38,599 nt of DNA. Origin: Bacteroidota bacterium. GTDB taxonomy: Bacteria > Bacteroidota > Bacteroidia > AKYH767-A > OLB10. Positions 8,092-31,004 of the stretch are shown piece by piece; the first letter of the stretch is position 1; every line of letters begins with the position of its first letter. Where the stretch lies: assembly GCA_024638565.1 (NCBI GenBank), contig JAHEKC010000016.1:1-38599 (forward strand), given 5' to 3'. The notes under the pieces are model-generated. The model did not search any database. It saw only the letters and a program-made list of their open reading frames with translations, and had not been told where the DNA came from. Position numbers and translations under genes: made by a program.

Positions 8092-11000
8092 ATGAAACAC
8101 GATCTTTTAACCCGCGCTGTTGCGGTCTGGATTCTGTCGCTGTTTATCTCTTTCCAGGCGAATTCCGCTGTAACGGTTACACCGGCACCGACTGGTACCT
8201 GCCTGAATGTCTCTCCGGGCGCCTATCTGGCCATCGGCACGATACAGATAAGCGAGAACATCGTAACCGATTATGCTGTACAGGCCGCCACCACGCTGAT
8301 CCTTACCGCTCCGGCTAACTTCCAGTTTAACCCTGGAGTTGGCACTGTAAGTTTTACAGGCGGCCGCGACATCAGCAGTGCATCAGTTGCCATCACTGCA
8401 ACCACTATCACGGTTACCCTTACAGTGGGCACCAATGTGCTGATGGACGACCTCTTTATTAACGGCGTCCAGGCGCGGGCCACTGCATCGGCATCATCCG
8501 GTCAAATTCTGCGTCTTGCCGGTTCCGGCGGTACAGCTACCATCACGGGCGATGCGCCCGGGGGCGGCATTAACCACGGCACCCTCATGACAGGCGGCCT
8601 TGGCTATACGTCGGCCGCCAACGGGGACTGGACAAACCCGGCGACATGGGGTGGTACGGTGCCAAATTGCAATGCTTTGGTCACGATCAACCATACCGTC
8701 ACTGTGGATGCCGCAGCCAGTGTCACGAATCTTACCATTAATACCGGCGGGGATCTCGTCTCCGACAATGACGTTACGGTGGGTGGAACCTTCACCATTA
8801 ACGGTACCGGTGTCTATACACATAATAATACGACAAATGCCACGACAACCATTTTCAATGGTACAGAAAGCTTCAGCAGTACCAGTGTAATCCAGGTGGA
8901 CCAGTGGCATGACAGAAATACACCGCTTGCAACGGGTGTGACCGGTAATTTTGGCAATGTCACGCTTAATGCTGGGGGCACCGCCACTCCCTGGGACCAC
9001 GACGGCATGTTTTCGACCAATACGATACAGGGTACCCTTACCATTTCCAGCGGCCAGGTGACGATGGATGACGGAACGGGTGGGACGACCAGCCTGACCC
9101 TGCAGGATGTTTTAGTAACCGGCACCGGGAATCTCGAACTGGCAGCAGGCTCCAACCGCAACCTGACCCTCGTCACCAACAACTTTACCGACAACAGCAC
9201 CTCCGCTGCTATATCCTATATCATGTACCGGACTTATGGAACCCTCGACTGGACTGTTAATGGCGATCTTAACCTGAGCCATACCTTCCAGTGTGTGGCG
9301 GGCACGGGAAGCCAGACGGAAAATGCGACGGTGCATGTTACCGGCGATATGAATATCACCGGCGGGACAATAGACTTTATCAGGAACGTTGACGGCACCC
9401 TAAGCCTGACGGTCGACGGCAATACCACCATCAATACTGCCGGGATCTTCCAACTGATCGATGCAGCCGACAATGATTTGACTTTCAGTACCACGGACCT
9501 TATTATAAGTGGTACAACGACCAATAACTACCTGCAGGGCAGCGTGGGCACCATCGATGTCGATATCTCCAATGACTTTATTGCATCCGGTACCGGGCGT
9601 TTCCGGTTTACCCGGAACACGAGTAACACCAATACCGCTACAATAGATATCAGCGGAGACGCTGTTTGTACGGCAGGGGAAACGCAGTTCAGTTACGGGT
9701 CACAGGATTTCGTGGTCACGGTGACCGGCGACATCCTTGTATCCAATTCCTCCACGGAGGTGATCGGTGAAGGCTACTCCAACGGTAGCGGGAACCCGTC
9801 ATTCGTCGTTGCCGGAAATGTCATAATCACGGACGGCTCGTTCACCATGACGGAGGGCCGTGGTTCCGTGGACCTGGATCTCACCGGAATGCTGCAGGTT
9901 AACGACGGCATCTTCTGGGGTGTCAATAAAAGTGCGACAGGAAACTGGGGGACCGGCGATTTCGACATTGGCAGCGTGGATTACAATGGGGGCCGCCTAT
10001 ACTTCTTCGACGGTGGTATCACCGACGGCAAGACGGTGACCATCAACATCGTAAATGACTTTGATATCAACTTTCTCGCTTCCACGGACCGTGTGCACCT
10101 GCTGCGCCCGGACGCCGACAATAACGCACTGCTCGATCTTGATATCGGGGGTGACCTGATCGTTTCCGGTCTTAGTTCGGGATGTTACTTCCTGTCAAAT
10201 GCAGGTACCGGAAACCAGGCCGTGGATATCGTGGGTTCCATCCTCGTTTCCGGCGGCCAGATGTACTGGGTCGGAACCGAATCAAGCGGAAATGCACATG
10301 ACCTCGTGATGAACGTAACGGGAGAATTCAGCCAGTCGGCCGGAAATGTCGTGTGGGCTGCCCTGGACGGCACATCTACGATTGCCATAACGGAGAACTA
10401 CACCATCACGGGAGGGACCTCAACCCTTAAGTGGGACAATGGCCAGATGACCCTGACCATCAGCGGCGACTATATCCAGTCGGGCGGCACATTCAACTTC
10501 CATACCCGTAACACGGATACGCCCGACTCGAACACGCTCGAGGTGTACGGGAACTTCCTGCATACCGGCGGCACGATCGAATTCGACGAGCGCGCGGGTA
10601 ACACCAACGCTGAACATTCCATTGATTATTATGGAACAATCTTTACGCTGGGAGGAACGGGTGTGATTTCACATGACAACCACCTGACGGCTAACACGGT
10701 CTTCGGTAATATCAATTTCAATACGGCAGGCACTGTCGTGTTCAACCGGTCCTCTGCCACCCACGACCTGCGGCATATCAGGCAGACCATCGCCGCCGGC
10801 ACTACCGTGGACGGTTCCGGGTCTGCCAACAACTTTCAGGTATCCTCGCATTCGAGCAGCACCTTCGCTGACCACAATACACTTACCATTAACGGCACGC
10901 TGGCCATGGGCACCGCGCAGGTATTCGCGCGGCAGCAGGCAAACTACTACGCGGCACTGACCGTCGCCAGCGGAGGTCGCTTCCGCACGCGTCATACGGG

Positions 11001-12402
11001 CGGATTCTATTCCGGATCCGCCACCGCATCTGCCGTGGACGGTATGATCAGCGGGAACAACCGCATGGACTATTCACTCGACGCAAACAGCACCATAGAG
11101 TATTACGGTGTCGATAACCAGATTGTAACCGGTGTGCCCAACGGCATCGCCACCGGCACCCAGCATGAATACGGGAACCTCGATATCAATTTTACGGGTA
11201 CCGCTGACACCGAGTTCGTATATCCTGAAACTACCAATGAAGTATTTATCCGCGGTACGCTGGTTATGTCCAATGGCGAGTTCAACCTGGACAACGACCA
11301 TAATACCGTGTCCGGCGGAATGACGATTTCACTCCGGAACGGGGCCACCACTTCCCGTACCAACGGGTACGTGCGCAGTGAGGTGGATGATGGTACCGGT
11401 ATCATCCTCTGGAATATCACGACAACGGGTGGCACACACATATTCCCATTCGGCTATAACTCTACCAACTACATTCCGTTCACCTTTGCGCCCACCGCCG
11501 GCAGCTCCGGCGATGTGAGCATGTCCACTTACCATACGCTGGCCAATAATGTGCCTTATCCGCCATCGGTCAACCACCTCAATGACCTGGTGGGCAGTGA
11601 CAACAGCGCCAATACGGTGGACCGGTTCTGGAGGTTCACGGTCACCGGTTCACCGACAGTGGATGTGACCTACACGGCTACCGTTGCCGAGGTGGGTGGG
11701 ATCACCAACCCGCGTGCACAACGCTGGCGCACGGCCAACAACGGCTGGGAGCCCGCGCTGGGTATCCAGTCCAACCCGACCGGGACATCCACGCTGGTAT
11801 CCGGCCTTACAGGCCTCGATATGTGGTGGACGCTGTCATCGGCGACCTTTCCGCTGCCGGTTGAAATTTCCTCCTTTACCGCCTCCTGCTCAAACGGGCA
11901 AAACACGCTGAACTGGATCACGGAGTCGGAAACGAACAACGACTATTTCGCCATCGAGCGCAGCACCTACAACCAGGCGTATACCCGCATTGGCGTCGTA
12001 CAGGGTAACGGTACTACTTCAGGCCCCACCCACTATAGCTTTACGGATCCGTCCAAGGCCACCCAAATGGTGTATTACCGTCTCAGGCAGTTTGACTATG
12101 ACGGCGATTCACAGGTGCACGGGCCTGTAGCTGCACGTCCCTGCGCTTCGATTCCGGTTCACTCCATCGAGCTGGCCTTCTATGACAACGGCACCGTGAC
12201 GCTTGACCTGGTGGCCAATGGCCCGATGACTGACGAGGTGCGCCTCTATAATCTGACAGGCCAGATGCTGGACAGCAGGAAGTTGTTTACCGAAGGCGGC
12301 AAGGTCAGGGTAGTCCTGGGTAAAAACCTGACGGAAGGCGTATACCTGATATCCCTTGGCTCCGGCGAACGCAAACTTGTTGGCGGGCTGGCAAATAACT
12401 AG
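8092..12402 (+). CDS. Giant repeat-rich secreted protein with T9SS sorting domain
   Basis: This 1436-residue protein is exported by Sec (signal peptide about residues 1-26, ending FQANSA) and then probably by the type IX system to the cell surface or medium. The second ATG (8092) is preferred over 8059 because it puts the basic n-region and hydrophobic core at the true N-terminus. Most of the protein is Thr/Asn/Gly-rich beta-strand repeats; units such as GDMNITGGTIDF, GDYIQSGGTFNF and GNFLHTGGTIEF recur from about 9330 to 10650, consistent with a right-handed beta-helix. From about 11851 a fibronectin-like module (PLPVEISSFTAS...ERSTYNQAYTRIG) leads to a C-terminal sorting domain ending EGVYLISLGSGERKLVGG. 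It may be a surface adhesin or matrix protein. A strong terminator follows the stop. T9SS export is well supported; the biological role is unknown. Confidence 0.85.
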   Translation: MKHDLLTRAVAVWILSLFISFQANSAVTVTPAPTGTCLNVSPGAYLAIGTIQISENIVTDYAVQAATTLILTAPANFQFNPGVGTVSFTGGRDISSASVAITATTITVTLTVGTNVLMDDLFINGVQARATASASSGQILRLAGSGGTATITGDAPGGGINHGTLMTGGLGYTSAANGDWTNPATWGGTVPNCNALVTINHTVTVDAAASVTNLTINTGGDLVSDNDVTVGGTFTINGTGVYTHNNTTNATTTIFNGTESFSSTSVIQVDQWHDRNTPLATGVTGNFGNVTLNAGGTATPWDHDGMFSTNTIQGTLTISSGQVTMDDGTGGTTSLTLQDVLVTGTGNLELAAGSNRNLTLVTNNFTDNSTSAAISYIMYRTYGTLDWTVNGDLNLSHTFQCVAGTGSQTENATVHVTGDMNITGGTIDFIRNVDGTLSLTVDGNTTINTAGIFQLIDAADNDLTFSTTDLIISGTTTNNYLQGSVGTIDVDISNDFIASGTGRFRFTRNTSNTNTATIDISGDAVCTAGETQFSYGSQDFVVTVTGDILVSNSSTEVIGEGYSNGSGNPSFVVAGNVIITDGSFTMTEGRGSVDLDLTGMLQVNDGIFWGVNKSATGNWGTGDFDIGSVDYNGGRLYFFDGGITDGKTVTINIVNDFDINFLASTDRVHLLRPDADNNALLDLDIGGDLIVSGLSSGCYFLSNAGTGNQAVDIVGSILVSGGQMYWVGTESSGNAHDLVMNVTGEFSQSAGNVVWAALDGTSTIAITENYTITGGTSTLKWDNGQMTLTISGDYIQSGGTFNFHTRNTDTPDSNTLEVYGNFLHTGGTIEFDERAGNTNAEHSIDYYGTIFTLGGTGVISHDNHLTANTVFGNINFNTAGTVVFNRSSATHDLRHIRQTIAAGTTVDGSGSANNFQVSSHSSSTFADHNTLTINGTLAMGTAQVFARQQANYYAALTVASGGRFRTRHTGGFYSGSATASAVDGMISGNNRMDYSLDANSTIEYYGVDNQIVTGVPNGIATGTQHEYGNLDINFTGTADTEFVYPETTNEVFIRGTLVMSNGEFNLDNDHNTVSGGMTISLRNGATTSRTNGYVRSEVDDGTGIILWNITTTGGTHIFPFGYNSTNYIPFTFAPTAGSSGDVSMSTYHTLANNVPYPPSVNHLNDLVGSDNSANTVDRFWRFTVTGSPTVDVTYTATVAEVGGITNPRAQRWRTANNGWEPALGIQSNPTGTSTLVSGLTGLDMWWTLSSATFPLPVEISSFTASCSNGQNTLNWITESETNNDYFAIERSTYNQAYTRIGVVQGNGTTSGPTHYSFTDPSKATQMVYYRLRQFDYDGDSQVHGPVAARPCASIPVHSIELAFYDNGTVTLDLVANGPMTDEVRLYNLTGQMLDSRKLFTEGGKVRVVLGKNLTEGVYLISLGSGERKLVGGLANN

Positions 12403-30713: not shown

Positions 30714-30718
30714 GGAGT

Positions 30719-30767
30719 TAATCAGTAATCAGTAGATCGTGAACTGTGAACTGTGAACTGTGATCCG
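30719..30767 (+). repeat. Degenerate heptamer tandem repeat, tract 1
   Basis: Seven in-phase 7-bp units each start with T and end with G: TAATCAG twice, TAGATCG, TGAACTG three times, then TGATCCG. The tract starts six bases after the mlaD stop codon. Confidence 0.9.
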
Positions 30768-30771
30768 TCTG

Positions 30772-30795
30772 CCCGAACGCCGTCAGGCGGGCGGG
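30772..30795. repeat. GC-rich imperfect hairpin inside the heptamer-repeat spacer
   Basis: CCCG (30772-30775) pairs with CGGG (30792-30795), and CGCC (30778-30781) with GGCG (30786-30789), around a GTCA loop with an AA/GG internal mismatch. There is no T-tract after it. It may be the core of a dispersed repeat or a weak terminator for the mla operon. Confidence 0.5.
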
Positions 30796-30844
30796 TGAAC
30801 CGAAACCAATAATGGCAAAATATCAAATTGAAATTTTAGCAAAC

Positions 30845-30872
30845 TTGAACATTGAGCGTTGAATATTGAACA
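30845..30872 (+). repeat. Degenerate heptamer tandem repeat, tract 2
   Basis: Four in-phase 7-bp units: TTGAACA, TTGAGCG, TTGAATA, TTGAACA. The first four bases are constant while the last three vary. Confidence 0.88.
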
Positions 30873-30917
30873 TTCCACGGCGAATATACAGGCATGGACG
30901 ATCGTGATTGCTTAGAC

Positions 30918-30952
30918 ATTATGCATTACGCGTTATGCATTAAGTATTTTCT
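30918..30952 (+). repeat. Degenerate heptamer tandem repeat, tract 3
   Basis: Five in-phase 7-bp units: ATTATGC, ATTACGC, GTTATGC, ATTAAGT, ATTTTCT. The last two are strongly degenerate. TTA at positions 2-4 is kept in the first four units. Confidence 0.8.
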
Positions 30953-30958
30953 TTAAAC

Positions 30959-30986
30959 CGTGATCCGTGAACAATGACAGTATGCA
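30959..30986 (+). repeat. Degenerate heptamer tandem repeat, tract 4
   Basis: CGTGATC and CGTGAAC are followed in phase by weaker units AATGACA and GTATGCA. This tract repeats the words of tract 1 (GTGATCC, GTGAAC) and ends 18 bases before the next gene. Confidence 0.65.
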
Positions 30987-31004
30987 GTAAAGAAAGAGAA
31001 TAAC

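Follow-up and report, generated by a model that had tools for sequence, protein, structure and literature searches.

Degenerate heptanucleotide arrays in a Bacteroidota intergenic spacer form part of a dispersed composite repeat

Introduction

Arrays of seven-nucleotide units form a known class of bacterial intergenic DNA, itself unexplained, and the locus described here belongs to it. In Xanthomonas and Nostoc, heptameric repeats of the forms GGGAATC and GGGGA(C/T)T are intergenic, and their unit number differs between related species (Rehm et al. 2015, PMC4692102). Direct repeats of TAACTGA occur in Beggiatoaceae, Cyanobacteria and a few Bacteroidetes (MacGregor 2015, PMC4679880). Both papers refer to work on long simple sequence repeats with units of 5-11 nt, in which, as cited there, heptanucleotides are the commonest long unit and slippage tied to polymerase contact length is proposed as the source of the number seven (Mrazek et al. 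2007, cited in PMC4679880 and PMC4692102). In Chloroflexus aurantiacus, (GATAGRA)n satellites are described as species-specific heptamer arrays scattered over the genome (PMC6749651).

Here we analyse an intergenic spacer in a DNA stretch of 38,599 nucleotides (the window), taken from a 3.02-Mb draft Bacteroidota assembly of 165 contigs, in which it is contig C48. The heptads of this spacer are like the Xanthomonas and Nostoc repeats in being intergenic, in having a 7-bp unit with constant and free positions ((GGGANTN)n in that case) and in showing no link to gene function (PMC4692102). Those repeats are, however, G-rich, quadruplex-forming and of one word family, whereas the present locus joins several word families, richer in AT, with a hairpin in a composite that is dispersed. 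The TAACTGA repeats are likewise intergenic heptamer arrays, and the Bacteroidetes regions that contain them also hold other heptamers (PMC4679880). That system nevertheless uses one exact word, placed in Beggiatoaceae mostly just upstream of start codons, whilst the words here drift, belong to a dispersed element and have no position or strand preference that we could find; TAACTGA itself is absent from the spacer, and the arrays sampled show no preference for gene direction. The Chloroflexus satellites share with our arrays their species-specific, genome-scattered character but, in the account of them given in PMC6749651, have a single word per family and no hairpin composite, and the work of Mrazek et al., as cited, counted exact repeats, a subject outside which degenerate, drifting arrays and composite elements fall. 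What is new, as far as our searches show, is a dispersed composite, made of several drifting heptad tracts and a hairpin, in whose copies 7-bp steps are recorded, together with the clean seven-only spectrum of a relative in the same order (G038). A period of seven alone, held across many words, is a sharp and testable regularity without an accepted cause, and the analysis accounts for a type of Bacteroidota spacer that is regulatory in look and a drifting repeat in behaviour.

Results and Discussion

Heptad tracts in the spacer

The spacer (30714-31004, 291 bp) lies between the mlaD gene and a beta-lactamase-fold gene, both on the same strand; no orthologue of the latter was found in the family. 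Identity at lag 7 within the spacer was 0.475, against 0.261 in dinucleotide shuffles (z 8.2), with none of 1,000 shuffles as high, so that tandem 7-bp units exceed chance as in the described class; lags 14 (z 5.6) and 21 (z 2.8) followed, and multiples of seven alone stood out. TRF called arrays of TAATCAG (30719), GTGAACT (30739) and TTGAACA (30845) and no others, and a scan for lag-7 segments added 30912-30977, comprising ATTATGC/ATTACGC and GTGATCC words. A sequence-only reading of the window had described four tracts of 7-bp period in a strict frame, and these are real, three of the four being solid; the fourth consists of two or three loose units that are non-significant alone, and the tracts do not share one common phase.

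Tract 1 (30719-30768, forward strand) reads TAATCAG twice, TAGATCG, TGAACTG three times and TGATCCG, and leads into a GC-rich hairpin, H1 (30769-30796, strand unassigned; CTGCCCGAACGCCGTCAGGCGGGCGGG), which went unmentioned in the earlier account of the spacer as heptad tracts alone. Beyond it lie tract A (30845-30874, forward strand; the second tract of that account), reading TTGAACA, TTGAGCG, TTGAATA, TTGAACA, TT, and tract B (30917-30948, forward strand; the third), reading CATTATG, CATTACG, CGTTATG, CATTAAG, TATT, and finally tract 4 (30960-30980, forward strand), with GTGATCC, GTGAACA and ATGACAG. H1 has a single-strand folding energy of -9.6 kcal/mol (z -1.5), and the presence of one stable-looking GC-rich hairpin is the point in favour of a structured non-coding RNA or riboswitch, for which the sequence-only reading had suggested a search. 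We consider such an RNA very unlikely, since the spacer has no Rfam match, neither strand folds with unusual energy (z -0.7 and -0.5) and an alignment of its copies elsewhere in the genome contains no compensatory pairs.

A dispersed composite repeat

When the spacer was used to search its own genome, about ten strong matches were obtained elsewhere (E down to 1.6e-34, 70-88% identity), and the aligned copies have one module order: GC-rich hairpin, linker, tract A (TTGAACA-type), middle, tract B (CATTATG-type) and GTGATCC-like words. The spacer holds a single copy of an intergenic repeat that is genome-specific, dispersed and present in about 11 copies. The element measures about 200 bp and is intergenic, and tracts A, B and 4 together with the hairpin make up one unit; in the window it occupies 30760-30974 on the forward strand, as delimited by own-genome DNA matches, alignments and a profile match at 30817-30963 (E 6.6e-33), and has its modules in the order just given. 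The four tracts had been read as separate word families, and their words do differ; they are not separate inventions, three of them being parts of this one element.

Most copies have H1 in common. The window copy has no counterpart of the right-hand module present in some others (TTCGCCAGGGC... plus a second hairpin), and the (GTGAACT)3 expansion in tract 1 is private to it, other copies having shorter GTGATCC-type heptads at that position (GTGATCC ATGATCG GTGAACC in the C29 copy, for example). A sequence profile of the element core (R1), which we used to count copies, identified nine full or near-full copies in the genome, including that in the window, and two partial ones, with three additional weak fragments (E 2e-4 to 5e-3). 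Searches with strict filters, through which weak copies may escape, and of genome sets containing no member of the same genus, gave only three weak array-like matches among 41 other genomes of the order (E 4e-4 to 3e-3) and none at E <= 1e-4 among 148 other genomes of the class. The genes adjoining the copies are functionally unrelated, encoding an SMC-like ATPase, a DUF4835 protein, a POTRA protein, a 3-hydroxyacyl-CoA dehydrogenase, a SpoIIE phosphatase and a PKD/type IX protein; DUF4835 and a type IX secretion CHU_C domain among these neighbours themselves point to a Bacteroidota. At two sites the copies are in tandem (C109a/b and C149a/b), and in some copies the hairpin is repeated at the far end, in direct orientation, with no terminal inverted repeats seen.

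With about 11 copies, tandem copies among them and a hairpin at one or both ends, the repeat might be viewed as a non-autonomous mobile element of REP- or MITE-like type, in which the hairpin would be the recognition end and the heptads passengers. We judge this quite unlikely: Y1 transposase (PF01797) is absent from the 97%-complete genome, the observed ends repeat the hairpin in direct orientation and are not terminal inverted repeats, and the proposal addresses dispersal whilst leaving the 7-bp steps described below unexplained. Assignment as a REP or REPIN with a RAYT was rejected in the same way, as the hairpin is present but PF01797 has no match in the genome.

Other repeated sequences were also noted in the spacers of this genome. 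The likeness between the C8 and C29 copies of the element runs about 100 bp past its end (TTTGCGGCTTTGCGTGAGC...ATTTCACGCC; L101 1790-1860 and L100 1790-1880), so that spacers of this genome give the impression of mosaics made from several dispersed modules. CGGCAGT/CGGCAGC heptads occur within near-identical sequence in two spacers (AAGCGGCAG...GTCGGCAGGAG; L039 10894-10930 and L062 10758-10790) and make a second, small dispersed heptad family, and a further intergenic repeat, which reads GTCATTGCGAGGAGCGAAGCAACGCGGCAATCTCC, lies close to heptads (L039 at about 10980-11020 and L096 near 1830-1870). No 14-mers at high copy were common to at least five spacers of the own-genome sample.

Seven-base steps between copies and between units

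Ten copies give 45 pairwise alignments, in which gaps are non-independent events; 39 gaps were of exactly 7 bp, against 14, 11, 4 and 2 gaps of 5, 6, 8 and 9 bp, respectively; among indels longer than 1 bp, exactly 7 was the commonest length. These 7-bp indels fall at four sites, namely right after the hairpin, in tract A, in tract B and near tract 4, which is itself an indel site among the copies. Tract A has one further unit in most other copies, the window copy and C109b each being one unit short, and C149b has one extra unit in tract B. Between the tandem sisters C109a and C109b there are 7-bp steps behind the hairpin and within tract A, and between C149a and C149b there is one such step in tract B, most of the remaining core being nearly identical between sisters. 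As in the described heptanucleotide arrays, units are gained and lost whole, 7 bp at a time, here among dispersed copies and not strains.

Relations between units within arrays point the same way. Homogeneous array cores, 122 in all, show 888 positions of difference between adjacent units, compared with 1164 +/- 20 when the order of units is shuffled, and in the longer arrays the distance between units rises from 1.40 to 3.27 as their separation increases from 1 to 8. Adjacent units are thus the most alike, which fits local duplication and loss of units combined with point mutation.

Accordingly, of the mechanisms raised by the sequence-only reading, slippage is the one that agrees with the 7-bp indels between copies and with the similarity of neighbouring units. 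The spacer is probably composed of slippage-type heptad arrays, one set of which has spread as a composite repeat. Units would be gained and lost whole (7 bp) by local duplication or deletion, most simply through slipped-strand replication, and would meanwhile undergo point mutation, a combination that lets the words drift whilst the 7-bp frame stays. The composite of hairpin and heptad tracts would later have reached further intergenic sites by copying, with tandem duplication at some of them. Replication slippage as the enzymatic route and copying as the mode of dispersal are what we infer from these patterns, and the arrays would be largely neutral. Against this explanation stands the near-exclusive use of seven over 5, 6 or 8, which slippage alone does not predict.

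Period and word in this and other genomes

For the rest of the genome, statistics were obtained from a sample of about 750 kb (78 kb intergenic and about 675 kb coding). The intergenic part contains 26 lag-7 segments against 2.65 expected; the coding part also contains 26, no higher than at lags 4, 5 and 8, and the arrays are, like those of the described class, intergenic without enrichment in genes. With the element set aside, 11 lag-7 segments remain in the intergenic DNA, where shuffles give 0.5; this is the top value of all lags (21 against 3.2 at a laxer cut-off), with lags 6 and 13 also exceeding shuffles, more weakly. The earlier claim of one 7-bp process rather than chance is supported. 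Bulk lag-7 autocorrelation of the intergenic DNA is flat (0.267, against 0.265-0.269 at lags 4, 6 and 8), which indicates that the signal is confined to a limited number of arrays.

Words and period recur, as had been anticipated, both in other intergenic DNA of this genome and in relatives. In G038, of the same order and another family, we counted 72 lag-7 segments and no more than five at any lag other than multiples of seven; stretches of this genome were partly picked for known arrays, so that the density is biased upward and the period is unbiased. Two genomes of the same family, G009 and G004, have 30 and three lag-7 segments, respectively. Array-rich and array-poor genomes thus occur within one family or order, and genes or repair losses that accompany arrays could be sought. 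The G038 arrays use many words, including AGTGAAY, AGTAATT, GGGACGA, CGAAACC and GGTAACT. Among the matches listed, exact GTTCACT arrays on the 2.73-Mb contig C1 of G038 all lie beyond 1.04 Mb, with none in the first megabase, in parts of which GC is lower; the position of arrays relative to the replication origin (dnaA at 2.07 Mb) showed no clear gradient.

AGTGAAY arrays were found, among the matches listed, in Cyanobacteria, Acidobacteria, Planctomycetes, Clostridia, Sulfurovum, Mesorhizobium and others, and these loci, again among the matches listed and chosen by their heptad word, carry further heptad arrays as well, with 184 lag-7 segments against at most 15 at non-multiple lags. The spread over named genomes among these matches (L202-L281) is wider than that reported for TAACTGA. 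Nonetheless, AGTGAAY was rejected as a special word: it occurs in 13 of 395 Bacteroidota genomes and a backwards control word, about equally common, in 11, which indicates that the period, and not the word, is what is shared. The first few loci agreed with a role of the heptads in placing stop codons in every reading frame behind genes, but this idea was also discarded, as across the array-bearing spacers tabulated the stop-rich strand has no clear bias to gene direction.

The freedom of the words bears on the two enzymatic or protein-based proposals of the sequence-only reading, neither of which it supports. A reverse transcriptase-like enzyme adding heptamers from an internal template would account for a period that is strictly 7 in several genomes, with nothing comparable at 5, 6, 8 or 9, but should yield constant words; the gradual drift along arrays, with neighbours most alike, and the many unrelated words within one genome make it extremely unlikely. 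The other proposal is selection for protein sites at 7-bp spacing, which would make up a site of regulatory or architectural function present by copying in several spacers. Three units span 21 bp, or two helical turns, tract B contains a near-palindrome (TGCATTACGCGTTATGCA), and conservation among copies is highest in tracts A and B, with mean column identities of 0.86 and 0.91 against 0.63-0.76 elsewhere in the element. One genome, however, has many unrelated words at the same period, the control word is about as frequent as the tested one, the copies adjoin functionally unrelated genes, arrays have no clear orientation bias relative to genes and the number of units varies, and we regard the proposal as unlikely. 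The higher conservation of tract B nonetheless counts against the slippage reading, and that of both tracts leaves room for a selected site, above all in tract B.

Hairpins associated with arrays

In G038, hairpins of the type CCTGCC...GGCAGG are found inside heptad arrays in nine of 36 array spacers, compared with two of 122 others (p 2.7e-5), although the form scored, CYNGCC...GGCNRG, was chosen after examples had been seen. Hairpins in general gave no clear enrichment near arrays, this specific form alone being enriched. The association is weak in the window's own genome (two of 13 against four of 315, p 0.02), where one of the two cases is a copy of the element; the layout of that element, hairpin plus heptads, is the same as that of the G038 hairpins within arrays. 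A broader and more tentative proposal, which we hold possible but doubtful, is that a replication- or repair-linked process with an intrinsic 7-nt step, indifferent to word, acts in many bacterial genomes to build drifting intergenic heptad arrays, perhaps promoted by nearby GC-rich hairpins, and that the window element would be a copied composite of such arrays. Individual G038 hairpins (CCTGCCGAAGCTTTAGCGTAGGCAGG and variants) are located inside or at the edge of arrays at L149 16908, L150 4415, L152 8248 and 9511, L156 6688, L159 7517 and L160 5081, and at several of these loci heptads flank the hairpin on both sides.
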